Positions 9,002-64,000 of a stretch of 64,000 nucleotides of DNA are shown here, piece after piece (the first letter of the stretch is position 1; each line of letters starts with the position of its first letter). Below the pieces are notes generated by a model, which was not told the DNA's origin, ran no database searches, and saw nothing but the letters and a program-made list of their open reading frames with translations. The stretch comes from Macrocystis pyrifera (lineage: Eukaryota; Sar; Phaeophyceae; Laminariales; Laminariaceae): assembly GCA_031763025.1 (NCBI GenBank), contig JASSKH010000031.1, positions 4,757,783 through 4,821,782 on the forward strand, given 5' to 3'. Made by a program: the position numbers and the translations under genes.

Positions 9002-9107
9002 CTACGGGGGTCCATAGTTAATAGGACCTATGGTATGCAAACAAACCTATATATTTGCCTATTTTTACTAACAATATTTGGTCCCATTTACTATGGGTCC
9101 CCCGGAA
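9002..9107. mobile_element. MITE-A copy 1
   Basis: 105-bp TIR element: left end ACGGGGGTCCATAGTTAATA, right end complementary, AT-rich centre with CCTATATATTT. See the finding on MITE-A. Confidence 0.9.
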
Positions 9108-9297
9108 TAGCGTGATTCGGAATACTCCCGTTATTCGAATTGGAGTAAATCAGCCCCTAAAAGTCGACCAATCGGGCTGTGCCAAACAAAACACGACATT
9201 TCGGCGAGACGCCATGTGTAGCATTAAATACAGCCCCGTGTGTCACCCCGGTTAGCCGCATGACACGTCTGTCTAAGCCCGATACTCCACGCAGCTG

Positions 9298-9392
9298 AAC
9301 GCCCTCAACGAACAACCCAAAACTGTCCAATCAACCTCTACATCAACTCATCGACCAATCAACTAATCAATCAACCAATCAGTCAACCAACG
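9298..9392. repeat. CAATCAAC minisatellite
   Basis: Degenerate CCAATCAA/CAATCAAC units immediately downstream of the DNL gene stop codon. Confidence 0.65.
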
Positions 9393-9394
9393 AA

Positions 9395-12300
9395 TCAAGT
9401 GCCTCCAGAAGACGGGGACAATTCGCTCCCGTCCCCTTCCTCTCCATCTCGCTTTTTTTTCTTCGCCGTCGCGGCCGCTGCCGCCGTCACGTCTGGGCTC
9501 TTTCCGGCGATGTCGACAAGGTTAAGCTCCATGACGTTGTCGTCGTTCACGACGTGGCAGTCGGTGTCCCCTATCCGGTTGGTGATCTTCTCGATGTCCC
9601 ACCCGCCCGCGCCGTCTCCCGCTTCCTCGAACCACCTGTTTTCGTTCCGTAGTAACGGTTGTATGGTGGTGACGATGTTGTTTTAATACGGGGGATCATA
9701 GTAAATAGGACCAAATATTGTTCGTAAAAATAGGTAAATATGTAGGTTTTTATGTATACCATAGGTCCTACCATGGACCCCCGTAATAGTTGCTGTCCAT
9801 GTTATTCATGTGGACGTTGTTGCTGTTGTTGTTTTCGTTGACATTGTTGTCGTTGACATCGGTGTTTGTTGATGTTGATGTTGAAGGTAGTGTCGTTGGT
9901 CGTGGTGGCGACGCTGATGTTGGTGTCGTTGGTGTTGACGTCAAATATCCAGGTGGATGACGTCGAAGTTGTTGGCTGTTGTTGTTGTTGATGTTGATGG
10001 CGGTTCCGTTTATCGTTGTCATTGAACATATTGTATTATTACGGGGGTCCATAGTTAACGGGACCAAATCTTGTTAGTAAAAATAGGGAAATATATAGTT
10101 TTTTGTGTTTACCATAGGTCCTGTTAACTATGGACCCCCGTAAATAGTTGGTATCGTCGTCGTCGCCGTGGCGTCGCGCACGCGTTCGAGTGTTGGCATG
10201 GTTGGGAGGTGTGGGCGGGTATGGGAGAGGTTTGTTCAAGGTACGGGAGAGGAGTCGGAACCCTCTTGGACTACAAACAAAGTGCAACGGAACTAAGAAA
10301 AAAAACAACGAACGAAACGAACGAACGAACAAACAAAACATGAGAAGAAAACATGAAGCATTGCAACGAAAAGAAGAAGAGGGCGCCACCTGCACGCCAA
10401 TACAAAAAAAAAACACCAACACAAGTAGAGCATCTAATACCCCCGCTCCTCAGTGAAACAAAAAACGCGCGCGTTCGCCCGTCGCATGGCCCCATCTTAC
10501 CCTAGCCGGTCTGCAATGAGGTGCAAGTTGTGGCACCCGGGACATCGGGCCACAACGACTCCTTTCTCGTAGGAGAGTTTCGCGAAGGTCTTAGCCGTCC
10601 GCGTGTCGCAAACCTGAGGAAGAAGAGGTCGACATAAACAAGGGACATGGGGGAATCAACGGCAATGGGGTAGCGGAAACCAGATGGGGCCAAAAATAAA
10701 GCAGACCAGACGGGAAAAGGCAAGAGAATGGAACGGAAGACACCACAACACAAGGGAGCAAAAGACAGGACAACAAACAACAACACAAGACAAGACGAAG
10801 ACAAGACGAGACAAGACAAGACAAGACAAGACAAGACAAGACAAGACGAGACAAGCCAAGACACCACGACACAAGCACATTGAAAAACACAACAGAAAGG
10901 CACGGGCGAAGAAAAAAAATAGGGGGGCAAAGGGCGAACAGACGGAAAAGAAAATCGGCGAGCTGCTTGCTGTATGACAGACGGCGACGACAAACGATTG
11001 CGCCCTCACTCTTGGCGCCACTCCTATATGCAGCTGGATTGTCAGACGCAAGGGCGTGCGCAGAGTTTCAAGGCATGTCCCCTGAAATTACGGGGGGGCA
11101 TATGTAGTAAGAATCAGAACCCACGACAGACCCCAAAAACCGTGTATCCCCCATTTTGTTCACACACAACATTCGGTTCTGATTACTGTGTTCCCGCCCG
11201 AAATAGTAATTTTTCATCGAAGATTGCCAGCTCGTGCTTTCGCGCTTGCGGCGACAGAAGAGGAAGACTCGAAACAGTCCACCGTGATAGACCACAGTCA
11301 ACCACTAAGCCTACTCGTACGGGAATAACACGCAGCAACTACTGCATATTCAACTCACGGGCGATCGAAGTATCACTATTACGGGGGGCCATAGTTAACA
11401 GGACCTATTGTATACATAAAAACCTATATATTTCACTATTTTTACTAACAAAATTTGGTCCTATTTACTATGGACCCCCGTAGTAGTATCACAGGCAGCT
11501 CGCAAAGACGAGTTTCGACGACGAAATCCTCGCGCGATCAGACAGCTTGTGGTTTTTTTATTTGTACAAATATCACCCGAAGAATATATCTACTGCTGTC
11601 GCTGCAAGGGGCGAGAACGAACCAAAAAATCAACGAGCGCCGAGTCCTTTGTGCCAGAGAATAAACAGTGCGGCACCTTCACGACGGCCTTGCAACCAGC
11701 AACCAACAGCAGTCGTGTCAGCTTGCGATTGGACCCGAGTTGTAGCCAACCCAACTAGACTCGTGCCATGTATACGTACTAGGCCAGGGCCAGCCACGGT
11801 GTGGAACGATACCGCAGCGCCTAGGGCGCCTTGGTAGTGTGTGCGGCTTTGCTTCTAGCCGCTGAGCTTGAATCCAACTATTACGGGGGACCATAGTAAA
11901 TAGGACCAATTTTGATAGTAAAAGTAGGTAAATATATAGGTTTTTATGTATACCATAGGTCCTATTAACTATGAACCCCCGTAATATTAATAGGACTTGA
12001 CTCTTACCGACTGGCGTCCACACGCACTGTATGCTGCAGCAATAAGCCACCACGCGCCACCACGGCAAACGATACTACTGTACAGCGCGTCGTACGCAGG
12101 TTACCTTGGCAGTGTTTCGTTTCGCTCCAGCCTCGCCATTACTGCTGCTGCTGCTGCTGCTGCTGTGATCGAATCCGAACCCGATTACGAGTACGATTAC
12201 GCGGCCAACGTGTGTTACCAGGTACCGCTAGTAATAGTAACCCTATAGCGGCTTGATTGTAGTTACAGTGACCTAACAAGCGAGACGTGCGTGCCCTCAT

Positions 12301-13574
12301 CAATCCTCTATTTCGGGGGGCACAATACCAATCAGAATCCACGATGTACCCCAAAACCCATGTATCCGCCTACCACTCTGCGCGGAAATACGATACAAGG
12401 ACTCTTTCGGCCAATTTTTGTGCAGTCAGGATAAGTGGATCGAAAAACCCCGTTTCCGATCGAAGACAAAATCGGGCTTTCATATAATACTGTTGACATT
12501 TTTTTCGATCGAGCGATCCGATCCACGCATCCCGTCGAACAACTCAAACTCGAGTTTTTCGACGGGATTCGTGGATCGGATTTCTCGACCGAAAAAGTTT
12601 TTCGAAGCCCTCTCCACCCCTCCAAACACAACGGTCACGCCACACAGCAGCAGCCTGAACACCTCTTCGATGTTGGACTGACTGCTCTACTGCTGTTGCT
12701 GCTCTACTGCTGCGGCTGCTGCTCACAGCGCGGTACCTCCTAGGGCCAGCGAGCAGGACACGAAGCAGTTTTAAGAATACTTTCGCCTGCGATGCTCCCA
12801 AAGAGCACGAAAACTACTATTTCGATCCGATAGACGATAGGGAAGGGAGGCATCCAGACACACCCTGCCGAATTCATAATGGATCGGAAACCCACCTTTT
12901 TTTATCCTTCCAAACCGACGGTATTTCATGTAAGAGTTACCCGTAGACATTACTATGAAGACCAATCGGTCCTTATGTTTACACCCAGGGTGGTGTGTCT
13001 TATACCGTATATATACGAGGTTCCTGTCCGGGACGTGCCTAGGGGACTGGCGCAAGAACGCATTGAAGAAGATAGAGCATACGATATTGTATCATATGCA
13101 TACGCTACAAATATCACGACGTTATGAAATATCTGCATATTGCTGCTGTACGTGTAGACGTGTGCTGCAGCAGACTGTTCTTTCGTAACTGCCATTTGCA
13201 TTTTTGAAGAAAAAACATACTATTAATACATGGAAAAAGTGTGGAACTGTTACTGTCGACTTGAATCGCTTTTATAGATTTTTCCTGATGATTCCACCGA
13301 ACATTGTACGATACTTGTCAGTATGTTGATGCATGTCTTTGTTATGGCGCTCATGGGGAAGAACGCCTCTCCCGCACAAAACCAAGGACTGCCGACAAAA
13401 ACAAATAGGTTTGAAACCCCACGCGTGACACACGGCACACACCGCACACAAACGCGTGACACACGGAACGCAGCAGTACAGTGACGGGATGATATTTACA
13501 CAAGTAGAAAAGGATGCACCTAAGAAAGAGTTGGCACTCTCGACCACACTCGGCTGCCCATGAAAAATCGCACT

Positions 13575-13605
<31 letters not shown>

Positions 13606-16985: not shown

Positions 16986-18798
16986 ATGGAGCGTTCTGGC
17001 CAGGAACCTAAACAGGAAGCGAAACCCGCCGTTGGTGGTATCGATCAGCGAAACACGGCAGACCAAGAATATGTGTCGAATCCTGGAAGCCCTTCGGGGT
17101 GGGAAAGTCCTTTGCGAGGGCGGAAGGATGCTCCTGCTGCTGCTGCGGCGGCGGAGCCTTTGCCCCCTCCGCGTACCCCGGAGAAGAGAGAGATCAGCGC
17201 TGCGATGAGCCCCGAGAGGCCGTCGGCCGTGCTCGATCGCCGGGCGAGTGCTGCCACAAACTCCGGAGGTACGATCGTATATGTCTTGTTCTTGGTCGTA
17301 TTTTGTTTTTGCTCGCCATACGTACATTTTTTTTTTTTTCTGGCGCCAGCAGATGGACTTCTTCAAGTCCTTGATGAATGAAGCAAGACCATCCTACAGC
17401 AGTAGGTGCCGGCATCACCGCCGTTGCTGTTGCGCAAGGCACTCAAAATACTCGCGGGGGGAATGGTTCATGTGGCTGGCTAGATATTGGCCTTGCGTCT
17501 GAGTTCGAGCTCGCGCTTGGCGAATTCCTACTGCCCAGATGGCGGAGAGAGAAAAAGGCGTGCGTGCAGCCTGGTATGGCCGTCATTTTTGGTCGTGGTA
17601 CTCGTACCAGTTATAATATGGGTTGGTTGGATTTTTTGCGCCTTGTTTTTCTTTTCTGGTTGGCTTGGCGCCAAAAAAGCCGTTGTGTGGTTTATGGCAG
17701 CACGTACCTCTGCTGCTGCTGCGTGCACCGGTGCGTACAGCAATTATGACGTACCTGGTGCCGGGCACCAAGCACTGTTGCTGCTGTGTAGGCGGCCAAG
17801 TACTCCAGAGGCGTGCACACGCAGAGGGGAAACGAGACAGCAGTCACTATTACTATTAAATATCAATAGTATGTGTGTGTGTCATTCCCATGGATGTGTT
17901 GCCTTTGTGTACCATACCAGGTACCAGTCTGGTCGTAAATATAAGGGAGGTTCTGATGGCAACAAAATTTCGAAATGTACCTTATATTTATGGCCAGACT
18001 GATATATCATATACTATTAATACCTGGTACCAGGTATGTGTGTGTTGACGTCCTTTCTACCCTCAACTTCATCAGTACCTGATTGATCCCTTATCCTACA
18101 CAAAAAGAGGTACTGATTATGTGGTCACAGACCGTGACAGGCAGCACAGAAAGACCAAGAGTACAAAAAATGGATATATTTATATTCATGGGTAGAGCGG
18201 GTGAAATGACAGCAGCGTACCGGGTACGGGAACACAACGTAACCCCCCCAAGACCAAAAAATAAGAACAAAAAGACAATAAATAAGAAAAAATCAGAAAT
18301 GAAACAGAATACGATTGACGCAAGGAGACCAGAAAGGCTGCTATTGTGTAATAGAATGAAAGCATACGTGCTCAAGAAGGACAGATATTAATAGCTGCTG
18401 CACGGACGAAGCAACACGAAGGAGAGCAAGATATCGGCATAAGGACGGCCGGGAGGGGAAAGGAAACAAAGGGAGAGACAAGGCAAAAAGCAAGAATGAA
18501 GAGAGAGGGGAAAGAAAAGAGAAAATCGTACGCCAGGCGGTGATAGTAACATGAGCCGTCTCTGCTAGAAAACCGATTCGAAAACCTAGCCACACCCTCT
18601 GCTGTCTCCTTCCTACTCTCGTGAATAGCGGTGTCAAGTGTCCACGCTGCCGCTGTCTCGGTCCGCCCCATTGAACAACTCAGCAGAAACAAACAAAAAC
18701 TGCTATTAATAGACTTTAAGGGCTAGTCGAACCGATACCTAGCCACCCGATCTATCATTTCGTTTCTGCATTCGTCGACAGCTGTAGTATCGGTACGG

Positions 18799-23916: not shown

Positions 23917-26900
23917 TGAAAGCGCATGGCCGTGGTCGTAGGAGACCCTTCACCCGCGCATCCCTGCTCTTTTCCGGGACGGAGTGTGTCCGGTTTTCAC
24001 CGACCAGGGGGGGGGGCAGGAGTCTACTGAATATCCTCGCTATTTTTTTTTTTGTTGTTGCGGTCCTTGTGCTTCGGCTTGACGCGCTGAAGGAGATGTG
24101 GAACGACCTGCTGATCCTTCGTCTCGGTGCTGTTCTGCTGCGTGATATGTGTTTCGGGGAAAAATTCGCTGCAATTTTCTCAGGAAATAGCGGAGCAATC
24201 TACGGGGAGCTTACCGTCGGGTGCATGCAGAAGGTCGTCAACGTCCTCAAGGTAAACGTTTGTGCTATCGTTTTGTATAATAGTTAGGCGTTTGATGCTT
24301 AGCCGTTCGTTTTTTCGACGAGGGAGACGAAGTGGGGGCGATATATATATGTATATATATATGTACAACACGTTACGCGTACATGTGGCAGTTGTCGGCT
24401 AACGAGATCATAGGTGAGGCTCGCTCGGATGAAGGAAAACAGCAAGTGCGGTAGCGGTCCCTCCATTTAGAGCCGGTTGAGTATTAGTGCCGGCCTCCCT
24501 TAATCGTGCCTGTGAACTCGCTTGGCTCATACCTGGTATGGGATTGACCAGTACAATTGTGGCAGTGTGCGGAGGGATTAGTGCCAGTTGACGCTACATA
24601 TCGTGCCGGTATTGTTGGCTGGTGCATATGGTACCGGCACTATAGAGGGACCATTTCTGTAAGTGCTGCAGTGTTAAGGAGGGGTACGTGGCTACGGAGT
24701 TTTCTATAGGGTGACATAGCAGGGTACAGGATGCTGTGTAAGATGTCTGAACGGTACTGGTACGACTTTTAGTCGAGCTGATCCCCTCCCGCCTTTCGCT
24801 CTTTACCTCCCCGGTGGCTTCCGTGTGTTCCAGGAAGAGACGGGTTTCGACGCGAACTCTAGCTTTATTGACGTGGGATCGGGCCTAGGGAAGCCGAATT
24901 TTCATGTCGCGCAGGTTTGTGTGTTTGTGTGTGTGGCCTGATTGGGGAAGGTGTTGATCAGGCGTTTTCGTTTCATTTAAAAAAAAAAAATCCTGTTCGA
25001 TGAGCGATCTTTTTTATCCGGGTTTTTATGTTTTCTAGCAACAGGCGTTTCTTGCGCTTGGTGCCAATATGATCCCTGGTACTACGTATATACAGTACCA
25101 GTGTATATACTTTAGTATTAATAGTACACAGGTGTATGCCTCTTGAAACAGTTTTGGTGGTGCTAACCTAACCCTAACCCTGGAGCGATGGATGCACCAT
25201 ACTTCTGTTCGCTACGCGTCGTATTGTAGGTGAACAGATGAGTTACTCTTTTTTGTTTTGTTTTGTTTTTTGTTAACAATGTAAAGAAAAAAAATAAGCG
25301 AAATGTCACTATGTTCGGAAATGTTAACACCGTTTGCATGAGATATTAATGTATAAACGGTCTCTACGTTTTCGGGCAGATTAGTATGTGCAATACGTGA
25401 ACCATGAAGGAGAAGAAGCGGGCATTTCACGTTTCCGTCGTGGTTTCGGTGTGCTCAAGTAGGTATTTTGATGGCTCGATCACAATGGCTGTGCCGGCAG
25501 TGGCCGAGGCCAATGTTTCCGGCTGGCTGGCTGGCTGGCTGGCTCTACACGCACCGCGCTCCCTCTTCCTGTCGAAGTCACAGGCAGTCCGTCCGACCGC
25601 ATGACTCCCTCTGAGAGTCGGGCCACACCAGAGAATAGATCAACTCGTTTGAAGCTGCCACCCATGTGCAAGAAGGCCCAGCCCGTCTTATGAATGGCGG
25701 TTGTTTTAGCAGGATGTACCTCACCCTCAATACGAGTCGCCGAGCAAGCTCACGTTTCGCTTTGCGTTTTGGTGTAACGCGCAATGTCATGTCTGTCTGG
25801 TCGATGAAAGAAACCCCGACGTGCTCCGTCCCGGCATTGTAGGGATGCAAGGGTCCCTGGTCATATGACTGCGGCCATCCATGACTTTGACTACACCGCC
25901 CCCTCCTCCCGCCCACCTACCGCCCCTCACCGAGGACTGTATGGTGTAGTCCATGACCTTGATGTAAACCCTATAAAACCCCAACTACCCGACCGCGTTG
26001 GAAAATTCTCGGAAAATGAAGATATAATCAGGAAGTAGTGTGAACTATCAACCATTTTGTCGAAGCTGAACGCCTCCGCCTGAGAAGTTTATCGGAAAGT
26101 GAACAAATAATGAGTAAAAAGTGTAGTGTGGACTATCAACTATTTTACCGAAGCGGACCGCCTGAGAAACTTCTCGAAAAATGAAGAAGTAATGAGAAAA
26201 TAGTGTGGACTGTCAACTATTTTGGCGAAGCTGAGCCAATTCGTAGACCCTGCTATATATAAATTTGACCCCATCAACTGCTGTACGTAGATATATCTCA
26301 TAGTATATACCATATCTCGCATGTGTTACCCTCCCTATCCCCCTCATTTCTTGCTCATCATTACCCTACTGCTGTAAATAGCCCTCATGTTTTGTATCCC
26401 CCTCCCCCTTTCGTGCAAGCCTGCCTCACAAGCGGTTCTTAGTGGGATGCAGCTCACCCTTCATGCGACGCGCCCAACACCTCACGGCGCTTCGCACTTG
26501 GTGCGAGCAATGTCTGCCTGGCCGGTGAAAGCCCAACGTGCTCCGTGCCGGCATTGCTCACAAGGCGTTTTTAGTGGGATGCAGCTCGCTCCTCATGCGA
26601 CCCGCCCTGCACCCAACACCTCACGGCGCTTCGCGCTTGGTGCAAGCAATATCTGCCTGGTCGGTGAAAACCCGACATGCTCCGTCCCGGCATTGTAGGG
26701 ATGCGAGGGTCTATTGTCGTACGACCTCGGACATGCATGATATCGAGTACACCCCCCCCCCCTCCTCGCCCCTTCGTCTCGAAAGGGATGCGTAGTCAAT
26801 GCACAAATGACTAAGGCAAGCAACAGATGAATACCCTCCCCGCCCCCTTCCCTTCTTGCCTTGATCACCAAACTCGCGTTAATTCCCGTATTTGAAGTAA

Positions 26901-37192: not shown

Positions 37193-37691
37193 GTTGATTT
37201 ATTCATTTCGCGGCTGTGATTTATGTACGTGCTATTAATATCAACACGTACATATCAACACGTATATACCAGGTATACCATATCGCTAAGATTGTGCTTT
37301 TGATTATTGGAGCCAAAAATACTGTACACCTTTATTTTTTTTTCAGCAAACGCAGGGGTGCGCGAAAAAAAAAAAGAAAAACGGAGCTACTGCTTGCTGT
37401 ACGCTCGCTCCATGTTGGAACTGAAATGAAACACCAACCACTTACGAGGAACAAGAGCGGGTTGGGATTTTTTGTCGCTAAGTTGAAGAAAACATGTTTT
37501 TTTTTTTTAGAGTTTTAGTTTATTAATATTAAATAGTTGAGTTTTGTATACCCCCTCATGTCTGGGACTCGACAAAAAAGTGGAGTGTCTATTTTTTTGT
37601 TGTTGCTTGTGTGCCCTTGGCTATACTATTTGTGGTATATATATTTACAATCTCTGTCCCTAAATACAATACACGTTTAATATTCATACTA

Positions 37692-38391: not shown

Positions 38392-38750
38392 TAGTCTCGT
38401 GTGCGGCAGGGTGTGTGTGTCCTGCTGGTGTAGGCTATATGATTTTCTTGAACAATTTTTTTTTGTCTTGTACCGGTGTAGTAGTACAAACGTTGAGCGA
38501 AAAAGTATTATTAATAGCTCCCAAATGTTTACGTGTCGCCTACACTACAGTACATATACCGCCCTTTGCTCGTGTCCTCCTTGCCGTTTCCGTTTTTTAT
38601 TCTCCGCGCCTGAGTTTTAATATGTATTTTTTGTTCCCGTGACCGTGTCTTAACGTTTTTTGTTTGTTCCCGTAACCCGCGTCTTTTCGTCTGTATTTTT
38701 GTATCGTTTTATTTCGCTTCGTTTGTCACTCACTCACCGTGCGCGCGCAG

Positions 38751-40335: not shown

Positions 40336-41954
40336 TGTAGACCAGCCCCATCGTGGGACCTTGCAAACGTGATCCAGGTCCGTGACAATCATCTGTCTTG
40401 GTGTAATCTGTAAGAAGATCTGATTTATCTGACGTGTGAAACGTGTATACCTTCCTCTCCACACAGCTGCTGCTTGGGTTGTTTTTTATTTGGGTCTGCC
40501 TGAGCAGCGATTTCCTATCTGAGCATCTTCGGTTTTGTTCGAGCGAGTCTAGCACAACGTTCTAGCTTCTTCTTTTTTTGTCCTTTGGTGCGAGGGGGGG
40601 GGGGGGTTGGGGGGGGGGGGCAGGATACCTATGAGAGGGCGGGTGATTCGTGCGTCGGAGTCCTGGGTGGCTTATTCGAGCCGGGGTTGGTTGATTTATT
40701 GGCTGGTTTGGTTGTAATTCCTGCGTGTGTAACAATCGCTACAAATATTAAAAGTGTGCATTCATTCGTCAGGCCAGGGTTTTGGTGTGTGGTGTGGTTT
40801 GGTTTGGTTTGGTTGGTCGATTGGCTTCGCGCGTGCGCAACAGCCAGTAGATGCTACCGTAGGAACGGTATGTATGCGTTCATGCGTTCATCATGCGTCC
40901 ATGCCAGCAAACACCCACCCAGTATATCAAGTATCCCTGAGTATCAATCAAGTTCAATGAAATACGTATAATTTTGTGGTTGAATTTTACCTCCCGCACG
41001 GATGGATCAATCGGCAGTCGGTGCTGGAGTGTCTGCCGGTCGGCAGCATAACATTTATCGGAGTACGAAGACTTACGTAATATTAGTTGTTTTTTGTTGT
41101 GAGTGGTAATGGCGGGGGAGGATTGGTGGGGGGGGGGAAGGTCGGAGCGGGATTTGATCGCCGAGGACTACGTATAGAGCAGGCTTTGAAGTCCCCATTG
41201 TGGCCCGTGCGTGGTGTGGAGGAAAGCGCGGCGCTAGGCGGCGGTTGAGGCGTCGTAACAGAGGAAGCAGGCCACCAAGCGACTTTTGAGGCACAGCGGG
41301 GTTCGTTGGGGGGAAAACCACTGCGCTGTGCGTGCACGTAATATCTAGAGAGCGCAGGCGTGAAGCGTTTCGAAGCAGTAAGCTGCTGGGCACAGCTTAC
41401 ACAGCTTACGTAGGTAGGTACGATGGAGAATCAGGTATTAATAGTAGCCGGGATTATCTAATATACCTATTTAGCTGTTGCCTGGTAATGGATGTACGGT
41501 GTGTAGGACCGAGCAAGGTAGTGTGTGTGCCTCATAATTTTTTTTTCATGAAAAGTAAGACGTGTGTTGTCATCGTTGTTGGTGGAGGGAAGGACGGAAC
41601 GTTCCTGCTTTGACTCAAGTTGAAGTAGAGATAGGTGGGGGTGTGTGTGTGAGATGTGAAATTATTCCAAGAAAAAAATCCCAGGTTTACCTATTAATAG
41701 TAGCATTTGTCTCCTATACCGGGAAGTCCGAACAGATTCGGAATCCGTGGTGACGGGTTTCTTCTCTTCTCTCTCTCTCCGGCATTCGCCTTCGGGTTCA
41801 TCGCGCATTTGTACTACGTACAAAGCCGTGCTTCGGTATTTCTGCCGATCGGTGACAGCAAGGCAATCCATCATTTTTTTGGCCAACTCGTCGAGAAACG
41901 GCCGATTTTTCCTGACTGAGTTCGATGCTCTTTGTTTTTCAATCCTCTTGGAAG

Positions 41955-42788: not shown

Positions 42789-42893
42789 TTACGGGGGACC
42801 ATAGTAAATAGGACCTACGGTAAACGCAAAAACCTATATATTTACCTATTTTTAATCACAATATTTGGTCCTATTTACTATGGTCCCCCGTAA
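42789..42893. mobile_element. MITE-A copy 13
   Basis: Full-length, TA-flanked. Confidence 0.92.
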
Positions 42894-43998: not shown

Positions 43999-44267
43999 GC
44001 GTTCTACAATACGATAGAGGTAATATTAATAGCACATTTCCGTTAAAATGTTTTCTGAATGACGGGGGTTTCTTAACCCAAAATCGTCACAATACGAATC
44101 TTGTTTCGAAATCTGACGTTTTTGCATACTTGGGCCATGGGATTTATTCATCGGGAGGCAATTTGAGCTTTGCCGAAGCCAGTTTTCGGGTGAGCTACGT
44201 ATGGAGCTCCTTGAGGTCAAGTGAGGAGCCTCAGAAAATTCAGGGTGAACCTCTATCGTAGAACGCC
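43999..44267 (+). mobile_element. TIR element (GTTCTACGATAGAGGT family), copy 2
   Basis: Starts GCGTTCTACAATACGATAGA and ends ACCTCTATCGTAGAACGCC, an inverted pair about 20 bp long, enclosing 230 bp without coding capacity. The left half matches 6958-7185; this copy carries an extra 9 bp containing TATTAATA (44024-44031). Confidence 0.8.
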
Positions 44268-45557: not shown

Positions 45558-45832
45558 GTTGGGCAGTATGGAACCAGGGACCGACCGACTGCTGCTAGCA
45601 GGTTTATGCCTTTGGCTCTGCTCTTGTCGCTCACACGAGGTGCGTGACGATGTTATAAGCTCTCGTATTAGTTGCTGCTTGCCTCGCCAGATGTTTTCTG
45701 AACGAAGGGGCGAGGCGCGCATCAGAAAAGCAGGCGATATAACGCCTGCCAGGTGTGCTATGAGGGGACGATTGCTACAAACCATAATGCCGCAACAGGG
45801 GAGAGGGGATACCATAACGTTATACCCAACAG
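45558..45832 (+). mobile_element. 280-bp element with inverted ends, copy 1
   Basis: Runs from TGTTGGGCAGTATGG to ACGTTATACCCAACA. The reverse complement of 47062-47362 matches it through GCCTTTGGCTCTGCTCT, TCGCCTCGCCA and GGGATACCATAAC, so this is a mobile unit with at least two copies. Confidence 0.7.
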
Positions 45833-47061: not shown

Positions 47062-47362
47062 TGGGCATGGATAACTGTTATGGTATCCCCTCTTCCCTGT
47101 TGTGGCACTATGATTTGTAGCAAACGTCCCTTCATCATACCTGGCGGGCGTCAGTTATCGCCCGCCTTTCTGATGAATGCCTCGCTCCTTCGTTCAAAAG
47201 ACATCTTGGCGAGGCGAGCAGAAACTGCAGTAACGCAAAGAGCCTGTAACAATTAACGTCGTCAAGCACCTTCCGTGGGTGACCAGAGCAGAGCCAAAGG
47301 CATCACCTGCTATTAATAGCAGTAGTCGGTCCCTATAGGCCTATACTGCCTTGTGCTTGACA
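47062..47362 (-). mobile_element. 280-bp element with inverted ends, copy 2
   Basis: Reverse complement of 45558-45832, nested in a poly(C)-ended element. It contains GCTATTAATAGC where copy 1 has GCTAGC, an exact 6-bp gain. Confidence 0.7.
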
Positions 47363-48584: not shown

Positions 48585-48690
48585 ATACGGGGGACCATAG
48601 TAAATAGGACCAAAATATTGCTAGTAAAAATAGGCAAATATACAGGTTTTAGTGTTTACCGCAGGTCCTATTTACTATGGCCCCCCGTAA
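48585..48690. mobile_element. MITE-A copy 16
   Basis: Full-length, inserted in the LINE relic; TATTAATA follows at 48694. Confidence 0.92.
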
Positions 48691-49584
48691 TCGTATTAAT
48701 AGTGAACCTACTAAAAAAAGGAGGTGCAGGCTGACCCGGGGAACTACGAGTACAGAGGGATAACGCTAGGAAGCACAATTTTTTAATGACATAATGAGAG
48801 CATGGAGAAGGAAGACAAAACAAGCGAAGGTCAAGCCGGGTGAAAGCCAAGCCGTCAGCTGCGTAGGCCATGTGTACACATCAGGTAATATAATCCAAGG
48901 TATAGGAAAGACGCAGGGCTAACAACGTACCGTCCTTTTCTGGATGTACTGGAGACCTACGACACAGTATGAATAAATGCATCGGGTTGTGGCAAATGCT
49001 GTGGCAAATAGGGACCAAGAGGAAATATGTGGAGATTGATGAAGCATATGACGGAACGTGCGAGCAGTGCTGTGATGCTAGGCGGGGAAATATCGAAGTA
49101 TGCTGATATTTTACGAGGGCTTGTACAGGGATGTACGTCAACGCGAACGAAACATATTCAAGATATAGATATATTAACGACCTGATAGTAGCAGTTGGAG
49201 CAGCAAAGCGGGGAGTTGCGGCGAGGGGAGGACATGGTGTCGGGATTGATGCTTGCGGATGACTTCGACCGCGGGGACATCTGAAACCACCCGAAGGATT
49301 GCAGAAACTAAATAGAGAAGGCACTAGTAGAGCAACACTAGGAACTGGAGAGTGACGGCGAACGTTAACAAGTGCGCAGCAGTTGTACGTAACGAAGATG
49401 TAAGGTGAACCCGCGGTAAATCTCAGTTGGAAGTGGGGAGACGGCGAATTAATTGCTGATCGTACACCAGCATACGTACCTTGGCGTAGAGATCTCAAAA
49501 TACTTCTCTTGGGATACACACATGTAGCAAAAGTAATAGAAAAGGGTATAAAACACACGTAGGCAATATGGATGGGTTGCTGTA

Positions 49585-49693: not shown

Positions 49694-50925
49694 TAACAGA
49701 GTCTCACACTTGACACTAGGTTTGAGAGATGTGTCCTCGATGAACGCGATGGTACCAAAGCTAGAACACGCTGGAGAAGTACGGGGAGGGAACGCGAACG
49801 AACCTCGTAAAACAGTTGGAAACCGTACGTCTGACCAGCAGCTATTAATAGTAAAAAAACAAGACGCTCCAGTAAGACTAGGAATGCAGTACTGAGAGCA
49901 GAACTGGGAATGCACCCACTCAAAGACAAATAGAGACATGAGAGAGCTGAAACGGCAATATAAAGCAAGGAACACGCCAAAAAAGAGGTTGCCAGCCATA
50001 GTTTATAGAGCTTTATGGGAGAAAGTAACACAAAGGGCGAGCTGGAATAAGGTGGGATAGCGTAGTGGAGAAAGTATGGAAGGACGTACCAGGTACTGCT
50101 TGTATAGGAGGAAACCAAGCAGAGATGACGTCCGTAGAGAAGAGTGGCAGGTACAAGGCAGAAGTAGAAGCAGAAAGGGCAGAAAGAAGGGAAAGGCTAG
50201 CGCTAAGAAACAAGGTGGATCCGGAAAAAAAACACTTGGAGAGGTACGGGGGATTGGGCGCAAAGGAATAGGAATGAAAAAGTAATTTGCACGGCCCAAT
50301 GGACTTCGCGAAAACGCTGAAACTGCGATTTTCGTGTAGGTGACCTGGACCTGTCAGAAAGAAGAAAGAAGAATACCAGTAGCCGGGAGGAGGAGGAAGT
50401 AGACGCACAGATGTGCCCGTGTGGCAAAGCAATAGAGAGTAGAGCTCACAGCGTAGGAGAATGTGAAATGTACGAGGAGGAACGGGATGTGCTAGAAGAG
50501 GAGATGAGGGAAATAGACGAATGTGACATGGAGGAGTTTGTTACACTAGCGAGCAGCGAGAAAACGATCGATATCCCTAGAGATAGATGGTGGCCACAGG
50601 CGGCGAAGCAGGAAGGGGATAAGATTAGCAAAAAAAAACTATGTAATCTATGGAAACAACGTAATGAGCGCCCAACTGCTGTTGGAGAAGTCTCTATTAG
50701 GAGTAGGAACGGTGCTCCGTCTCGAAAGGGATGCGTGGTCAAAGGTCGAAAGATTAAGGCAAGCAACAAATGAGCACGCCCCCCCTCCCCCCCCCCCCCC
50801 CCGTTTGTCTGGAACTCCAAAAAAAAAGTGGGCTGTCGATTTGCCTCTTGTGTACCCTTCCTAGGCCTTCAATCATCCGCCATCAGTCAACAAACCACCC
50901 GTCACAGCAAAATACGCTGTACAGG

Positions 50926-52284: not shown

Positions 52285-54956
52285 AGCGGGTGTGTCATGG
52301 AATGTATCAGCATAGAGTGAACGGTGGAGAGTCGGGGTGGGGTAGGGCTTGTGTGCCGCTCCCCGGAGGCGTTCCGTTTGCTGCACAGAGTTCTCTGGAG
52401 CCAAGCCGGAAAGGGGCAGGCACGTATTTTCTCGTGCCGCGTGATGGAGGAAGCAACACTCCGTTGGTGACAAACACAGCAACAAACAACAACAACAACA
52501 ACAACAAAAACACAACAACAAACATAACGACAAACTTAACGACAAACACAACCACGATACAAACCAGCGGCGACCAAGAAACAACCACAACAACCACAAA
52601 AACAAAACGAAAACAGCCACGACGAAAACAACAGCAGCACAACATCACCGACACGCTACCACCGCCGCTACCACCACCACCAACACCACCACCACCAACA
52701 CCACAATCACCTCACCCCCCCTCCCCCTCGATCTCACATGTTGCACCACGTGAACCACGTGTCAAACGTGGCCCTCGGGGGCTGCTCCTTCTTCCCGCTG
52801 CCTCCAATTCCCGCCGCCCCCCCGGCCCCAGCACCGAAACCCCTCCCCCTTGGCCCCCCCCCCCCCCTTCGCCAGCTGCTTGAATTGCTGCCTCCTAGCC
52901 TCCATTTCCGGGTTGAGAGAGCCCATCTGCTGCATGCAAATATAGCAGTTCGGAAGGGGCTACGGGGAGGATTCAAGGAGGGGAGGGGAGGGAGGGGGGG
53001 GGAAGCGGGGAAGGAGGAGGAGGGGGGGGGGGGGGGGGGGTTGATTAGCGTGCGCCTCCACAAGAGCCAGAACCATAACAAGATTATCGTAAATCTTGTC
53101 ACAAAGCTGTTGCATCGGAGTCTGGAGGAAACAAAACGACGGAAGTCAGGCACTACTTTTGAGCAAACCCGCCTACCTTCTTGCCCCCCTCCGCTCCCCC
53201 CCTCCCACTCCACCCTCCCCCCTATTCCACTCCTAGCCCCCCACCGTCACCCCCCCACCCCCACGCCAAACCTTCCCCCTCCCCCCCCCCCCCCTCCCCC
53301 CCCCCCCCCCCCCCCCCCCCCCTCCCCTACCTTTTTGCATGCGGCACAGTAAGTGATGATAGGCTTCGGCCGCGGCGTCCCCACCCCTCCCCCCTGCCCG
53401 CCCCCACGCCTCCCTACAGGTTGGTCACCAACCCCCACCGGTGCCGAGCAAAAGTTGCACCTGGCCACAACACCAAACCAAGAAATTATGAGCGGGATAA
53501 AGGGGGGGAGGGGGACGGAGGGGGACGGAGGGAGGGGAGGGGAGGGGAGGGGACGGGGAGGGGACGGGGGGAGGAGGAGACGGGGGGAGGAGGGGACGGG
53601 GGGGGGAGGGAGGAGGGGAGGAGGGGGGGGGATCTCTTATGCTGTGGCGGTAAATGTGGCCGGCGGGGAGAGGAAGGGTGTGTGTGCGGGAGGGATCGAC
53701 AGTCTGCCTTGGTGCTGGTTGACGTATACCAGGTGTATTGCAGGGAGGCGGTAGGGAGGCGGGGTGGGTGGGGGTGGGGGGGGGGGGGTCACCACGGCGG
53801 TATCACAAATATGAAAAGCTTCTGAGACCAGGGTTGCAACGAAGTAACGCGATCGACAAAAGCGAAACAAAAAAAAAAAAAAACAAGCACTGAAAACCAA
53901 AAAAAACCAAAACCAAAAACTCGAAGCCACAAAAAACCACAAAAAAAAAAACAACAAACCGAAATCCAAAAACCAACAACCGACTACCCAAACCAAACAC
54001 AAAAAACAAAACAAAAAAAAAAAAAAAAACAAAAACCCACAACCAAAACCGACCCCCCCCCCCCCCCCCCCCCCCCCCGGCTCCAAAAACAACTATTACG
54101 GGGGACCATATTAAATAGGACCTACGGTACACACTAAAACCTATATTTTTACCTATTTTTACTAACAAAAATTGGTCCCATTAACTATGGACCCCCGTAA
54201 TACTAGAACCAAAACACTAAAAAACAAAATTAGCAAGAATATTTTTTTAACGTTATTGCCCCACTCGTATATACACTGGTATGAAGAATACAGAAAGAAA
54301 CCATTAACTCGTCTGGCGCGGTCGGTCGCTAGCTGGACCCTTCGGAAGACATTCGCTAAATTTTCACCGGCCATCAACCCATGATCCGTAAGTTAAGTGC
54401 TGGAAAGCTTTAGCGGGAATAACTTTTCGCCTTTCAGTTTTCGGGAATAGCTTTGACAGGATAAGTCAGGTTCACCGAGCTACACTCGGTACACACAGTT
54501 ATTTTTGTTTGGCTTATTGTGAACGACAACAGTACGCTTCGCCGTGGAATACTGCTGCTGCTGCATGGCTGCAGCTTTTGCCCGCAGCTTTCCGAGCGGA
54601 AAAAGGGCTCGGCACTCACACCTGTAAACCTTCGCCTCTGCGCAGCAGCTATCTGCCCTGTTGTTTTAAACACAGGGCGGACGAATTCGTAAGCTGGACT
54701 GCATATTAACAGCTGCGCTCGCGGGTTATTTCGATCGCATTTAGCAGTCTTAATAGCTGCTGCAAGTAATTTTGACTCCAATACATACTAACTTAGGGCT
54801 TGAGTGAACATCGCTGCGCTGTTTCCAAACGGTCCAAGAGCCTGGACACATCGTACGATTGTTGTTCTGGCAAGACGCAACGACCGCACACACAGCAGCG
54901 CAGAGCAGCGCATCGGAGCTCGCCAACGCCCTCACGCGGCACGCAAAAATATATGC

Positions 54957-55908: not shown

Positions 55909-56417
55909 GGCTCCGTACTGCTACTCTGTCCTGCGCCGTATCTGTCTTGCGTTTCCACAATTCGGCCCGCTTGATTAATGGCATGGTATCTGCTGGTACA
56001 TCGTTCTTAAACCGCGTCACGGGACGCAAAAAAGCACGGCAGTCTCCACGCTATACGCAACAGCAGCACACCCGGCCACGTACACGCCTCCAATCCGAAC
56101 AGCATACAAAAGTGAAGCATTCATCAGTGGCAGGTATGTCTCTTGCGTCACCCCCCTGAGAACCTAAATCCCCCCGTTAGTTTTTTTTGGTCTAGCTGGG
56201 TTTTGGACATTTCCATACCTGCTGCACTTCGAAGCAACAACCTCACGACACCTGCTACTGTCGTATTGCGCCTATTACGGGGGTCCATAGTTAATAGGAC
56301 CAAATATTGTCAGTAAAAATAGGTAAACATATAGGTTTTTATGTATTCCATACGTCCTGTTAACTATGGACCCCCGTGATACTCGTTACGTACCACTGGG
56401 GAGGTAAATTTTGTATG

Positions 56418-56458
<41 letters not shown>

Positions 56459-57467: not shown

Positions 57468-57498
<31 letters not shown>

Positions 57499-60400
57499 TC
57501 CTCGATGCCATGCATGGCCGTAGTCGTATGACGGGGGGGGGGGGGGGGGGGGGAGGGGAGGAGCCGCTTGATGACAGCGTAGCATACAGGGAAGCACAGG
57601 ACAGGACACCTACTTCAACTAGAAAATGTAACAAAACTCGAACGACATGAAAGGGTGTGTTGCGCACTATAATAGTCGGGACCAAATTTTGTTGGTAAAA
57701 ATAGGTAAATAAATATATAGGTTTTTATGTATACCATAGGTCCTGTTAACTGTGGACCCCCGTAACAGCGGCTCCCGAAAATGTTTTTCTCCTCCTGTGA
57801 ACCTAAACCTCAAGTCTGGAACTACTACGTAGGGTTAGTGCCATGGTAACCGTTACGGGGGGCTATAGTAAATAGGACCTACGGTACACACAAAAACCTT
57901 TATACATTTCCATATTTTTACGAACAATACTTGGTCCTATTTACTATGGCCCTCCGCAATAAAATAGCTTGCAGTGCGCCGTCTCCCTCCGACGCATAAA
58001 TCACTTAAACGTCTTGAACCTGGACAAACTGATTGAATTACACATCCGTCTGCTACGAAAAACCAAAAACAAGACAAACAAACAAACAAAACGCACCCCG
58101 TTAGTTCAATTTCTGTAAACCCTCCTCATTTTATAGCTGAATCTTTCACTCCAGTATTTCCACTTTCTTCTCTAGAAAAAAAAAAAAAAGAAAAGTTACA
58201 CAAAGAAGGTTCCCAGCATATACGCTCGGATAAAGGTTCCCGGCACGTATGTCGTTGCGAACGAGAGCAGGCACGACACCCCCCGCAACTTCGCCTTTGA
58301 AACGATCCCACCGTCACTTCAGGCACAGCTGGCGTATTTTATACCATAACTGTTGTTGTCATCGTCACCGCTACCGCTAACGCTCCCGTTACCACTCCCG
58401 CTCCCGCTCCCGCTCCCGCTCCCGCTCCCGCTCGCGCTCTGCTCCCGTTCCCGTTCCACTCCCACTCCCACTCCCACTCCCGCTTCCCTCCGCTTCTGCT
58501 CCCACTCTCACTCCCGCCACCGCTCTCGCTTCGGCTCCCTCTCTTACACCCGCCACCTCTACCGCAACCGCTATACACCGTTCGTTACTGACGTGCCATC
58601 ATAGACAGTGTGAACAGTACATTTTTTTTTGCCAAAACAAAAGTTCTGATCTGGTTGGGGGGGGGGAGGTACTCATTATCGTGCATGGCCGTAGTCGTAT
58701 GACCATTGTGGGGGGGAGGGGGGGGGGGGGGGGGGGGTTCTCCCAAAATCAGGTAACCACTCTGGCCGAGAATATAAGAATCGTTTCATATTCCTATCGG
58801 ATTCCAAATGTTTCTTATATTCCGGTTTTCTATATAGTCGTTTTCGTCATACAAATGCCTACAATTCATAGGCCCATGGAAATGTTGCATATATTCCTGT
58901 TTTCTCTATGGTCGTTTTCGTTTTCCTATTACGGGGGGGCCATAGTAAATAGGACCTGCGGTACATACAAAATCCTATATGTTTATTTATTTTACTAACA
59001 ATATTTGGTCCTATTTACTATGGTCCCCCGTAAAATATTAATAGGCCATGGGATTTGATTTTGGTTTTAGCCCGTATCGGGTCAAGTGCGTGTTTTTAGT
59101 CTTGACCCTCTATTTGGGACTTCAAAGGGGACAATTGACGATTATTTACTTCAGAATTTATATATTTTTTATCGTCCCCCCCTACTTTCCAGCTTAACTC
59201 GTATTACGGGGGTCTATAGTTAACAGGACCTATGGCATACATAAAAACCTACATATTTAGGTATTTTTAAAAACAATATTTGGTCCTGTTTACTATGGTC
59301 CCCCGCAATAGGTGGTTTTACCCTCAGCGATCGTCTTCCGGACAAGGCGTGGTCACAGGTGTCGTCCCTTCTCCCCCCCCCCCGGTACGTGCCTTCGTTT
59401 TCGTCGCGCATAGGGTTCAGCTCTCCCACTTGCTCGTCGATTTCCATTTCCATCGAGTGTTGCTGACTCACGCTCTCGCGCTTTCCGCTCGTGATCAATT
59501 TTTACGCAAGAAAAAGTCCACACAAGCATTCACTCGGTGACACTCGAACCCACGAAATTTGACCCTATTAATAGCCGGCACGCGGACCACCCCTCGTACC
59601 ACCAAGCCACCGGGGGCGCCGACATAAAGCGACGACTACAAGCGTCGGCCACTGCTGCGTGGTCTGGGGGTATGATGCAGATTGGCGTCCGACTTGCAAC
59701 GCAACGCAACGAACGAGCGGTACGGCACAGGCGCATCATGGTCCTCCTACCCGTACCTCTGAGCCCTCGCGCCGCTCGTAGACGCTTGATACCACCAAAA
59801 AAAAAGAATCGTGGTTTTGATCGGTATATATCTACGAGTAGGGGGTCCTCAAGGTGTCTATTGAAATTACGGGGGGCCATAGTAAATAGGACCAAATTTT
59901 GTTAGAAAAAATAGGGAATTATATAGGTTTTTGTGTGTACCGTAGGTGTTATTTACTATGGTCCTCCGCAACAGAGACAGTTTTTTGGGCGAGGACATAG
60001 ACCGCCTTCTCAAGTTTAAAAAAAAAAAAAAGGCCCGAAGAACAAAAAATGCAGAAAAAAAAAACATTGCAAGGTAAACTAAGTTGAAAATAAAACCGGA
60101 GAAAAAAAAAAAAAATCTCGAGAAAAAAAAACACGCAAGGGTGCGCTTCCTACTTGCCATATTAACAGTGTACGCATCGATCGACGCGGTGTCGCCCGCA
60201 GCTTGTGCAAACATGAACTTGACACAAGAAAAAACCTCGGTCTCCACGGTTGAGGTGTAATTTGTCCCGAAATAGAGTAACCATTTGGTTCGACAATTAG
60301 AGTAAAATCAGTGCTTATAAAGTGGGACAGAGCGGTATTGTGTAAATAATTCGCCCATCATCAATCATCCAACGAATCAAACCATCGATGTCGTCGTACC

Positions 60401-62969: not shown

Positions 62970-63005
<36 letters not shown>

Positions 63006-64000
63006 ATGCAAGGTTGTACGGCTCCCACCCCACCCGGCAAACATGGAAGCTCGTAGATCACATCTGAACAGCAAATCAGGAATCTGTCTGCCCCGGAATT
63101 ATCTTTTGTACAATAGGTCGGTCACGGCGAAAGTATCCAAATATTGTTAGTAAAAATAGGTAAATATATACCTGGTAGGTTTTTGTGTGTACCGTAGGTC
63201 CTATTTACCGTGGTCCTCCCGTAATAGTGGCGAATCGATTCTCTGTTGCGAGGTGAGAAACCTTAGGCCAACAAGTGCTACCTGGTACCTGGTACGTATG
63301 TAGCTCTGTCGTGAGCACGCGTCTTGGGCGGAGGCGGTGGGGCGGGGGGGGGGGGGGGGGCGACACCCTTCTGGCGATGAGATGCACTCTACGGTTTCAC
63401 CATATTTTTTACATGTAATTCAAAATTTATAAAATGTATCTGGTGCTTCTTGTATCGACCATATACACCTTCGCAATTTTACACTTTTGCTTGACAAAAC
63501 AGAAACATTCCAATTCAGAAATTATTCACAGCTTTTGCATATTTTTACAGTTGTACATCTGCCCCCCCCCCCCCCCCCCCCCCCCCAATGTCTGCCTGGT
63601 CGGTGAAAACCCGGCATGCTCCGTCCCGGCATTGTAGAGATGCGAGGGTCTATGGTCATACGACTACGGCCAAGCATGAGATCGAGTGCATATCTCCTAT
63701 CGAGTACACCCCCCCCACCCCCCCCTTCGCGCTTGGTGCAAGCAATGTCTGCCTGGTCGGTGAAAACCCGACGTGCTCCGTCCCGGCATTGTAGGGATGC
63801 GAGGGCCTATGGTCATACGACTACGGCCATGCATGACAATGAGTCCACCTCCCCCCCCCCCGCCGCCCCCTCCTCTCGCGCGCTCCCGGGATACTAACCT
63901 TGAGCAAGCTGATGCCGCGAGGCGCCATGCCCACTAGCAATGCACCCTCCAAAACGCCTTTGTCGACGTAACGGTTCGCCTCAGAAGTAAGAAACGCCTG
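51772..64000 (-). CDS. MIOS: MIOS/SEA4-type GATOR2 subunit, C-terminal part; 5 firm exons, two apparent frameshifts
   Basis: MIOS is a WD40/alpha-solenoid subunit of GATOR2, which activates TORC1 at the lysosome or vacuole in response to amino acids. Minus-strand exons, 5' to 3': 63899-64000 (runs off the window; NRYVDKGVLEGALLVGM), 61516-61678 (SYVDRTSDVQTAALV, then DLLDRWQFWYN), 53331-53460 (CNFCSAP ... ITYCAACKK), 52738-52959 (PLPNCYICMQQMGS ... TFDTWFTWCN) and 51772-51904 (MCSHGGHANHLNDWF, then CGVRGCRCKCRSID, stop 51772-51774). The paired-Cys zinc region closely follows the human MIOS C-terminus as I recall it (CNFC, KPLPRCALC, WFTWCHNCRHGGHAGH, CTCKC). Splice phases fit once two problems are allowed for: an extra TA in TATATCGC at 61554-61558 and a G14 tract one base off frame at 52854-52867. 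These could be assembly errors, polymorphism or gene decay. An extra exon at 60700-60836 may belong here. The WD40 N-terminus lies outside. Confidence 0.9.
52010..52265 (-). repeat. Two inverted poly(C)-ended element 3' ends
   Basis: G tract + TGTACTCGATAGGAG...CATGCATGGCCGTAGTCG at 52010-52100 and a second G tract + TGCTCATTATCAAACATGG ... AAGCGAAACGTGAGG at 52105-52245, followed by another G tract. Within the last MIOS-like intron. Confidence 0.75.
54096..54200. mobile_element. MITE-A copy 18
   Basis: Full-length, directly after a C tract. Confidence 0.92.
54960..55006. repeat. (CTG)n microsatellite
   Basis: About 16 CTG units; a second array lies at 55866-55910. Confidence 0.9.
55144..55254. 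mobile_element. MITE-A copy 19
   Basis: Full-length with a small insertion in the left arm (GATCCACACCATAG). Confidence 0.9.
55311..55420. mobile_element. MITE-A copy 20
   Basis: Only 57 bp from copy 19; centre expanded by (TA)n. Confidence 0.9.
56275..56379. mobile_element. MITE-A copy 21
   Basis: Full-length. Confidence 0.92.
56415..56456. repeat. (TA)n microsatellite
   Basis: About 20 TA units. Confidence 0.95.
57030..57280. repeat. G-rich low-complexity block
   Basis: Long G runs broken by A and C, creating spurious Gly/Arg and Pro ORFs. Confidence 0.85.
57281..57405 (-). repeat. LINE 3' tail, inverted
   Basis: TTACTCATTTGTCTCTTGCC ... CCCTTTCGAGACGGAGCACC ... CAGCTGGGCGCTCATTACGT, the reverse complement of 50665-50775. 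Confidence 0.75.
57478..57550 (-). repeat. Inverted poly(C)-ended element 3' fragment
   Basis: G tract + TCCTCGATGCCATGCATGGC then GTAGTCGTATGAC, running into another G tract. Confidence 0.65.
57675..57765. mobile_element. MITE-A copy 22, left tip deleted
   Basis: Begins at GGGACCAAATTTTG; the first 14 or so bases of the left TIR are missing and the right TIR is intact. Confidence 0.85.
57853..57959. mobile_element. MITE-A copy 23
   Basis: Full-length, diverged tips. Confidence 0.9.
58380..58540. repeat. (CCCGCT)n minisatellite
   Basis: Hexamer array CCCGCT/CCCACT, source of spurious Pro/Leu ORFs. Confidence 0.85.
58655..58737 (-). repeat. Inverted poly(C)-ended element 3' fragment
   Basis: G tract + TACTCATTATCGTGCATGG, then CCGTAGTCGTATGACCAT and a second G tract. 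Confidence 0.65.
58929..59033. mobile_element. MITE-A copy 24
   Basis: Full-length; TATTAATA follows at 59036. Confidence 0.92.
59204..59308. mobile_element. MITE-A copy 25
   Basis: Full-length, abutting the 3' end of SINE copy 2. Confidence 0.92.
59311..59620 (-). mobile_element. tRNA-derived SINE, copy 2
   Basis: Minus-strand copy of 3625-3902 with a better-kept head: GGTGGCTTGGTGGTACGAGG, B box GGTTCGAGTGTC, body GAAAGCGCGAGAGCGTGAG, end AGGGTAAAACCACC. The head contains CTATTAATAG (59566-59573 core) where copy 1 has no such word. Confidence 0.78.
59867..59971. mobile_element. MITE-A copy 26
   Basis: Full-length. Confidence 0.92.
60261..60336. mobile_element. MITE-C palindromic element
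   Basis: TTTGTCCCGAAATAGAGTAA pairs loosely with ATAAAGTGGGACAGAGCGGT. Confidence 0.55.
60350..60700. repeat. Minisatellite, about 70-bp unit
   Basis: Units share CACCAATCA, AACTATCAATGACG and TCATACC; at least five diverged copies. It ends exactly at the donor side of the exon-like 60700-60836. Confidence 0.7.
60700..60836 (-). CDS. Orphan exon, possibly of the MIOS-like gene
   Basis: The minus strand has a GACGCAG acceptor and a strong CAG|GTATGA donor enclosing one open frame of 45 codons (KFGKQWYYAKTRLDENPLSP, then KAIARLEAIKLRHTPAAL). The other frames contain stops and the composition is protein-like. It enters in phase 2, which matches the upstream MIOS-like exon (61516), but it leaves in phase 1 whereas the next firm exon needs phase 2, so another exon would be required. 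I do not recognise the peptide. It could be a lineage-specific MIOS insert or a different gene. Confidence 0.45.
61929..62041. mobile_element. MITE-A copy 27
   Basis: Full-length, 8 bp longer; TACCAGTA is present where other copies read a single TA. Confidence 0.9.
62465..62585. repeat. MITE-B-like fragments
   Basis: CTGCAGTCAGTCCCGTTCTG, then CAAAGCACTCTAATTATCAG and GGGGACAAAGCACTCTAATT in series, diverged arms of MITE-B. Confidence 0.5.
62826..62900. repeat. ATCATCTGTAC minisatellite
   Basis: Four or five copies of CATCATCTGTA/GATCATCTGTA. Confidence 0.8.
62974..63002. repeat. (AG)n microsatellite
   Basis: About 14 AG units. Confidence 0.95.
63134..63224. mobile_element. MITE-A copy 28, left tip deleted
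   Basis: Left TIR lost; the centre carries TACCTGGTA (63169-63177) where other copies have a single TA. Confidence 0.88.
63583..63862 (+). repeat. Two poly(C)-ended element 3' ends in tandem
   Basis: ATGTCTGCCTGGTCGGTGAA ... GAGTACACCCCCCC occurs twice (to 63715 and to 63862), each ending in a C tract. It lies in the MIOS-like intron just 3' of the partial exon. Confidence 0.8.

Follow-up and report, generated by a model that had tools for sequence, protein, structure and literature searches.

The palindrome TATTAATA in the genome of the giant kelp Macrocystis pyrifera is, judged from sequence comparisons, very probably the footprint left by excised copies of MITE-A, a non-autonomous element of 105 bp with TT...AA tips and a TA target-site duplication. 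This origin had been proposed in an initial annotation of one 64-kb stretch of the genome at positions 4757783-4821782 of contig C213, referred to here as the window, and it drew support from the genome-wide excess of the word, from the presence of three alleles at a single TA, and from a tRNA-like SINE in which TTAA accounted for 30 of 38 gains. Candidate footprints are called scars below for brevity.

Abundance of the word

Exact copies of TATTAATA numbered 24 in the 64-kb window, compared with 0.85 expected under an order-1 and 0.37 under an order-2 Markov model, in keeping with the earlier estimate of about 20 copies where about one was expected. Expectations rose to 1.7 and 5.6 under order-3 and order-4 models, respectively, because such models already contain pieces of the word. 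Among 8-bp palindromes of the window, TATTAATA ranked third behind TATATATA and ATATATAT. Seventeen of the 18 positions listed previously were exact; the other, given as 38519, should be 38509. Copies at 427, 433, 469, 8373, 11985 and 37521 were missing from that list, the first three of which lie inside an AGT microsatellite spanning positions 1-508. The features of the window are listed below in window coordinates, without strand.

427..476: three TATTAATA in AGT microsatellite, two overlapping (TATTAATATTAATA); scars or microsatellite mutation, either possible
8373..8380: candidate TATTAATA scar, exact word, absent from the earlier list
11882..11983: MITE-A copy, core TACGGGGG...CCCCCGTA; the TATTAATA at 11985 abuts its right end
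13221..13228: candidate TATTAATA scar, exact word
18015..18022: candidate TATTAATA scar, exact word
18386..18393: candidate TATTAATA scar; paralog (L019) reads ACAGATA-GCTGCACG, a 9-bp difference made up of 6 bp and one GCT unit
18704..18711: candidate TATTAATA scar, exact word
25116..25123: candidate TATTAATA scar followed by GTA, exact word
34461..34468: candidate TATTAATA scar, exact word
36677..36684: candidate TATTAATA scar, exact word
36707..36714: candidate TATTAATA scar, exact word
37233..37240: candidate TATTAATA scar, exact word
37521..37528: TATTAATA with AT-rich flanks, maybe background, exact word
38509..38516: candidate TATTAATA scar, exact word (38519 in the earlier list)
41436..41443: candidate TATTAATA scar followed by GTA, exact word
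41692..41699: candidate TATTAATA scar followed by GTA, exact word
42789..42893: MITE-A, 105 bp, TT...AA, TA on both sides, both arms
44024..44031: TATTAATA in a stretch that is 9 bp longer than in the paralog at 6963-7146, from alignment; not a clean 6 bp
47311..47318: candidate TATTAATA scar, 6 bp longer than the paralog at 45594, where the TA is empty (GCTAGC)
48694..48701: TATTAATA adjoining the right end of MITE-A 48586-48689, exact word
49843..49850: candidate TATTAATA scar followed by GTA, exact word
54096..54200: MITE-A, 105 bp, TT...AA, TA on both sides, both arms
59036..59043: TATTAATA adjoining the right end of MITE-A 58931-59032, exact word; maybe a decayed MITE-A arm
59566..59573: TATTAATA within a tRNA-like SINE copy; no clean 6-bp gain relative to other SINE copies, from alignment

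The copy at 11985 is followed by GGAC and may likewise be a piece of a decayed MITE-A arm. Searches of the window with Rfam (gathering threshold) and ARAGORN gave no matches.

The count was extended to 20 stretches of 10 kb elsewhere on the contig (the 200-kb sample; 264 kb together with the window). The sample contained 34 copies against 2.3 expected, which made TATTAATA its top 8-bp palindrome by count. With simple repeats masked, the 264 kb held 57 copies of TATTAATA (3.0 expected), and no other TA-NNNN-TA word exceeded its expectation by as much. GC content of the window was about 50%, and the published assembly has 537 Mb in 223 contigs with 50.37% GC (PMC10498591, Table 1). Across the whole genome (537,376,219 bp, 223 contigs) we counted 94,130 copies of TATTAATA and 7,522 of the reversed control ATAATTAT, a ratio of 12.5. 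The genome-wide comparison with background suggested in the initial annotation thus placed the word far above it, and the over-representation is confirmed as real. The excess over the control word, approximately 86,600, is larger than the number of exact surviving MITE-A tips (66,605). Part of the total comes from other sources, such as one unit copied six times in contig C1 and possible decayed MITE-A arms.

The MITE-A element

Of the MITE-A copies in the window, 24 were recognised by both arms and a further 4 by a single arm. Thirty copies from the 264 kb yielded a consensus of 105 bp ending in TT...AA, to which their median identity was.90. This consensus agrees, as do the individual copies, with the earlier description of an element lying between TA dinucleotides with such tips. 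The first tip base is T in.77, C in.12, G in.06 and A in.05. Genome-wide, the exact tip TATTACGGGGG occurs 66,605 times on both strands combined, and its reversed control 212 times; viral contigs contained no exact match to the MITE-A arm pattern. MITE-A is short, has long inverted repeats and reaches a high copy number, as is characteristic of MITEs, and nested insertions of the form CCA-TA-TTACGGGGG...CCCCCGTAA-TA-GT display the TA target-site duplication of Tc1/mariner elements. Locally, the numbers of MITE-A copies and of scars do not go together, with only 6 TTACGGGGG tips beside 34 TATTAATA in the 200-kb sample. Many scars could be old, or a relative with the same tips could have contributed to this surplus.

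Three states of a TA site in the MITE-A arm

TA sites in multi-copy repeats were examined by comparing copies of one repeat site with each other rather than orthologous loci. The arm of MITE-A itself carries a TA in the preferred half-site, CCA-TA-GTA, and exact 6-bp gains of the form TA-NNNN-TA at this position numbered 124 genome-wide. Words were tallied for the first 100 of these 124 matches in contig order. Among these 100, the inserted word was TTAA in 38, GTAA in 20, CTCG in 7, ATAA in 4, CTAA in 4 and TTAG in 3, and 17 further words occurred once or twice each (24 in total). As GTAA amounts to a tandem duplication of TAGTAA, it was set aside as ambiguous; TTAA does not duplicate local sequence at this site. 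CTAA and TTAG are the residues expected from MITE-A copies with C, the second commonest tip base, in first position. TTAT and TTAC, expected in low numbers from the minor tip bases, were not among the 100 matches tallied. The four ATAA gains may be due to slippage or may have been left by a MITE-A with an A tip.

The same TA was occupied by MITE-A in 23 places genome-wide, all with a T tip. Twenty of these filled sites were fetched; 14 had a readable right junction (at most 3 mismatches) and 6 had no match, and in 12 of the 14 the inner element measured exactly 105 bp. The empty state was represented by 45 arms in the window that fit the ungapped arm pattern with at most 3 mismatches. The TA in the MITE-A arm therefore occurs empty, filled by MITE-A, and as TATTAATA. 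When 20 scar loci comprising 21 scarred arms were fetched, their flanks and internal sequence differed by eye, and amplification of one copy is therefore no explanation for them. Both scarred arms of locus L038 lie within one compound locus.

Without the motif requirement, any gain of 5-8 bp between CCA and GT was found 629 times genome-wide. Among the first 100 listed, 23 were local duplications; the 77 left included TACAGTA (16), TACTGTA (13) and TATTAATA (10), with all other words at 3 or fewer, making TATTAATA the third commonest non-duplication gain listed. Sixty of the 77 had the form TA...TA. Half of TATTAATA was present in five of the listed gains (TACTAATA twice, TAATAATA, TCATAATA and TATTATG), and such low numbers indicate a fairly uniform footprint within gains of 5-8 bp, a search that is blind to precise excisions, to those with deletions and to those with longer filler. 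From internal comparison, TACAGTA and TACTGTA look like the footprint of another family at the same site. Their A/T alternation is the form of a three-base footprint with a central mismatch, as in Sleeping Beauty. The Sleeping Beauty footprint itself has been printed as TAG(T/A)CTA (PMC2874221).

Other candidate footprints were rejected or set aside. Among 100 listed of 920 gains of 4 bp, TACATA occurred 25 times, but it matches a tandem duplication of local sequence, and TATGTA, its partner, was absent from the same 100; TACGTA occurred 16 times, with 11 of the 16 from one background. The enriched word TATCGATA occurs inside repeats of loci L002 and L014, and we make no claim that it is a scar.

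Gains in an unrelated SINE

A second host site was provided by the tRNA-like SINE, in which the TA lies in the context GTGAGT-TA-GCTANATTCGA. The complete list of exact 6-bp gains at this TA has 38 members, with TTAA in 30 and TTTC, TATG, TTAG, TTCA, ACAT, GTAA, CTAA and GTTA once each. Twenty of the 30 scarred SINEs were fetched and had 20 different flanks. Compared among themselves, these 20 had a median identity of.864; against 9 other SINE copies drawn from the 264 kb it was.884, and the 9 were closer to one another (.924). No base was fixed in the 20 scarred copies yet rare in the 9 others; four columns had a state found in 13-16 of the 20 scarred copies and in at most 2 of the 9. A few pairs of scars may therefore be of common origin, and the 30 scars represent many events, not necessarily 30. 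In both hosts the TTAA alleles have the terminal bases of the element between two TAs, as Tc1/mariner elements leave them, the excision itself being presumed.

Target-site preference

Reading outward from the outer TA, the flanks of MITE-A had G at.55, T at.55 and A at.48 (66 arms), and those of TATTAATA had G at.56, T at.53 and A at.51 (110 sides, 55 sites), compared to.21,.29 and.29 at the same three positions of TA sites overall. Beyond these positions, the TATTAATA flanks carried at most 0.06 bit per position. A second sample consisted of the first 40 regions of the genome-wide TATTAATA list, from the short contigs C1-C4 (<0.2 Mb). Its 41 sites came to 29 distinct ones after near-identical sites were merged, one site being present six times in C1. 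Here the flanks had G at.36, T at.43 and A at.53 (one-sided binomial p of.006,.015 and 8e-5, respectively), a weaker preference in the same direction. Scars and MITE-A insertions thus have a common preference for TAC-TA-GTA, less pronounced in the second sample.

Paralogous pairs

One of the three window pairs put forward in the initial annotation was a clean 6-bp case: the sequence at 47311 reads GCTATTAATAGC where its paralog at 45594 reads GCTAGC. Two aligners put the gap of this pair in different places, with the letters unchanged. The element at 44024 indeed gains 9 bp, the less exact fit already described, and the SINE pair 59566 and 3650, previously considered consistent, showed no clean insertion when aligned. 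A strict-flank all-against-all comparison of the 264 kb (834 alignments) yielded no TTAATA gap. Looser filters gave 83 alignments spanning a scar and several candidates, including a SINE at locus L004 and the copy at 18386. Neither was accepted as a clean case, the former being ambiguous once aligned to further copies and the latter having an extra GCT unit.

Proposed mechanism

These alleles are best read as the result of cut-and-paste excision in which MITE-A, or a relative sharing its tips, leaves two terminal bases of each end behind. A putative Tc1/mariner-like transposase would be supplied in trans, and its putative source is a partner element with a Tc1/mariner DDE transposase between TTACGGGGGNCCATAGT...GGACC ends. 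The enzyme would make a staggered cut two bases inside each 5' end, a position suggested by footprint length alone, so that TT on the left and AA on the right would stay behind, and end joining that keeps both pairs would give TA-TTAA-TA. Two TT 3' overhangs, as expected from such a cut, offer no base pairing to one another; this would account for the retention of both terminal pairs, with fill-in joining producing TTAA. CAG-type ends, by contrast, are supposed to overlap with one mismatch and so to leave three bases (the CAG/CTG footprint); pairing and non-pairing overhangs would then explain the even four-base footprint beside the odd three-base one.

We incline, though only slightly, to a broader proposal. 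In it, near-identical 6-bp scars of one MITE family would number in the tens of thousands, about as many as its surviving copies or more, since its TT overhangs do not pair and are joined by the host in a single standard way. The genome would then be a countable ledger of excision, in which three or more further footprint types (TAC(A/T)GTA, TACC(A/T)GGTA and TACGAGTA) stand for other families, some of them perhaps gone as elements.

Alternative explanations

The scars might have come mostly from another TA-inserting family with TT...AA tips, either an extinct relative or the autonomous partner. The footprints name an element no further than its tips and target preference, and the 34 scars beside 6 TTACGGGGG tips in the 200-kb sample would fit such a family. 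However, when the 264 kb were searched for inverted repeats flanked by TA, with arms of 14 bp and no more than 1 mismatch, no other recurrent TT-tipped family was recovered, just MITE-A and its internal words; the preference for TAC-TA-GTA is common to MITE-A and scars, and a scar-bearing site is also filled by MITE-A. We consider this origin unlikely, and for each scar MITE-A is the putative source in preference to any other element with those tips.

Explanations without excision fared worse. The word could be generated by mutation of microsatellites, by slippage or by decaying MITE-A arms (TAGTTAATAGG minus a G), a view favoured by the three copies in the AGT array and by the GTAA gains of MITE-A arms, which equal a tandem duplication of local sequence. 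GGAC, the mark of a decayed arm, followed TATTAATA on one side in each of two samples, but this was just 1 of 110 and 1 of 58 sides; TTAA is no local duplication at the MITE-A site, and it makes up 30 of the 38 gains in a SINE unrelated to MITE-A. We regard these sources as very improbable for the word in general. In favour of a functional motif or insertion hot spot present before MITE-A arrived, 3 of 55 TATTAATA lay within 12 bp outside a MITE-A end; the corresponding figure for other TANNNNTA words was 18 of 1,372 (p =.044, one-sided Fisher test). Such adjacency is weak evidence, and 2 of the 3 cases may, by eye, be decayed MITE-A arms. The preferred target is TAC-TA-GTA and not TATTAATA, and in both repeats TA is the family state and TATTAATA the gain, which leaves a pre-existing motif with next to no credibility. 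Excision of MITE-A is accordingly the reading we retain as very probable.

Comparison with known systems

MITE-A resembles Tc1/mariner elements (Tc1, Tc3, Sleeping Beauty) in its TA duplication and in the terminal bases left between two TAs. Sleeping Beauty overhangs are joined with a central mismatch. Its staggered cuts leave three-base 3' overhangs, to which the footprints are identical (PMC7827188), whereas four bases, both terminal pairs, are kept at MITE-A scars.

The Stowaway MITEs of grasses and rice Mariner elements are also short TA-inserting MITEs whose old footprints were inferred from sequence (PMC1925063, PMC4423477). Stowaway footprints are described as variable, with 1-4 bp of the terminal repeat (PMC1925063), and for several superfamilies in rice exactly two target copies are reported to have been left in 8 of 94 excisions (PMC4423477). 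In contrast, one word is dominant among gains of fixed length at the MITE-A site. The tips of Stowaway elements also differ from those of MITE-A.

Among brown algae, Ectocarpus has plentiful non-autonomous Tc1/mariner MITEs such as TcMar-N1_Ec32, and the main text of that transposon survey contains no word starting with "footprint" or "excision" (PMC12477816). The TTAA at the scarred site recalls piggyBac, an element that has TTAA as its target and leaves no footprint on excision (PMC7351741). Membership of that group was rejected, as the target duplication of MITE-A is TA and presumed excised sites keep a 6-bp gain.

The class of mechanism is thus already known, and the number and uniformity of scars in one genome are the new part. 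A literature search, mostly of titles and abstracts, for the word together with transposon excision and for Macrocystis transposon footprints found no report of a TATTAATA scar and no description of such scale and uniformity in one genome.

Significance

Of the two halves of cut-and-paste transposition, excision is usually the harder to see, as its footprints vary. A single dominant footprint would make excisions countable without a second strain, and one assembly could reveal the ratio of excision to insertion, which targets the lost copies preferred and how host break repair habitually joins ends. As a 6-bp gain keeps the reading frame, scars in coding sequence could conceivably be tolerated. 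Many small indels in the giant kelp genome would, on this evidence, be transposon scars.

Other recurring gains at TA sites

Copies of MITE-A (the 105-bp non-autonomous element with TT...AA tips) carry gains other than the TA-TTAA-TA scar. A 7-bp gain at TA, TACCAGGTA/TACCTGGTA, was found within MITE-A copies at window 63137-63230 and in two fetched loci, L025 and L039. Across 264 kb (the window plus L001-L020, 20 further 10-kb stretches of the same contig), this word was observed 54 times against 1.7 expected. It resembles a footprint left by a different family, with A or T at the central position.

Copies of MITE-A were also compared genome-wide at a TA inside the element's own arm (CCA-TA-GT). 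A further recurring gain of 6 bp, TACTCGTA/TACGAGTA, was present in 9 of the 100 matches listed of 124, and the same 264 kb held 44 occurrences where 6 were expected; it may resemble the Minos footprint. Two gains of 5 bp at this site, TACAGTA (16) and TACTGTA (13), were nearly equal in number among the 100 matches listed of 629, a pair such as a Tc1/mariner family with a three-base overhang would leave.

Double words and a word that is probably not a scar

The double word TATTAATATTAATA was found at three positions:
window 427-440
L012:8452-8465
L089 (a locus of the later scar sample)
Such words are as expected if a scar's TA was hit a second time and vacated, or if the 6-bp unit was duplicated.

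TATCGATA was enriched; it sits in repeats of L002 and L014 and is therefore probably not a scar.

Other features

Other window features were as follows:
3631-3909, tRNA-like SINE
within part of 59197-59621, tRNA-like SINE
5060-6118, minus strand, suspected by eye to be a reverse-transcriptase piece: the open frame there encodes 352 aa and includes a YADD-like motif

The SINE family also occurs in L005, L007, L009, L011, L012, L015 and L020, at about one copy per 30 kb over the 264 kb, and its copies are a useful recorder of scars.
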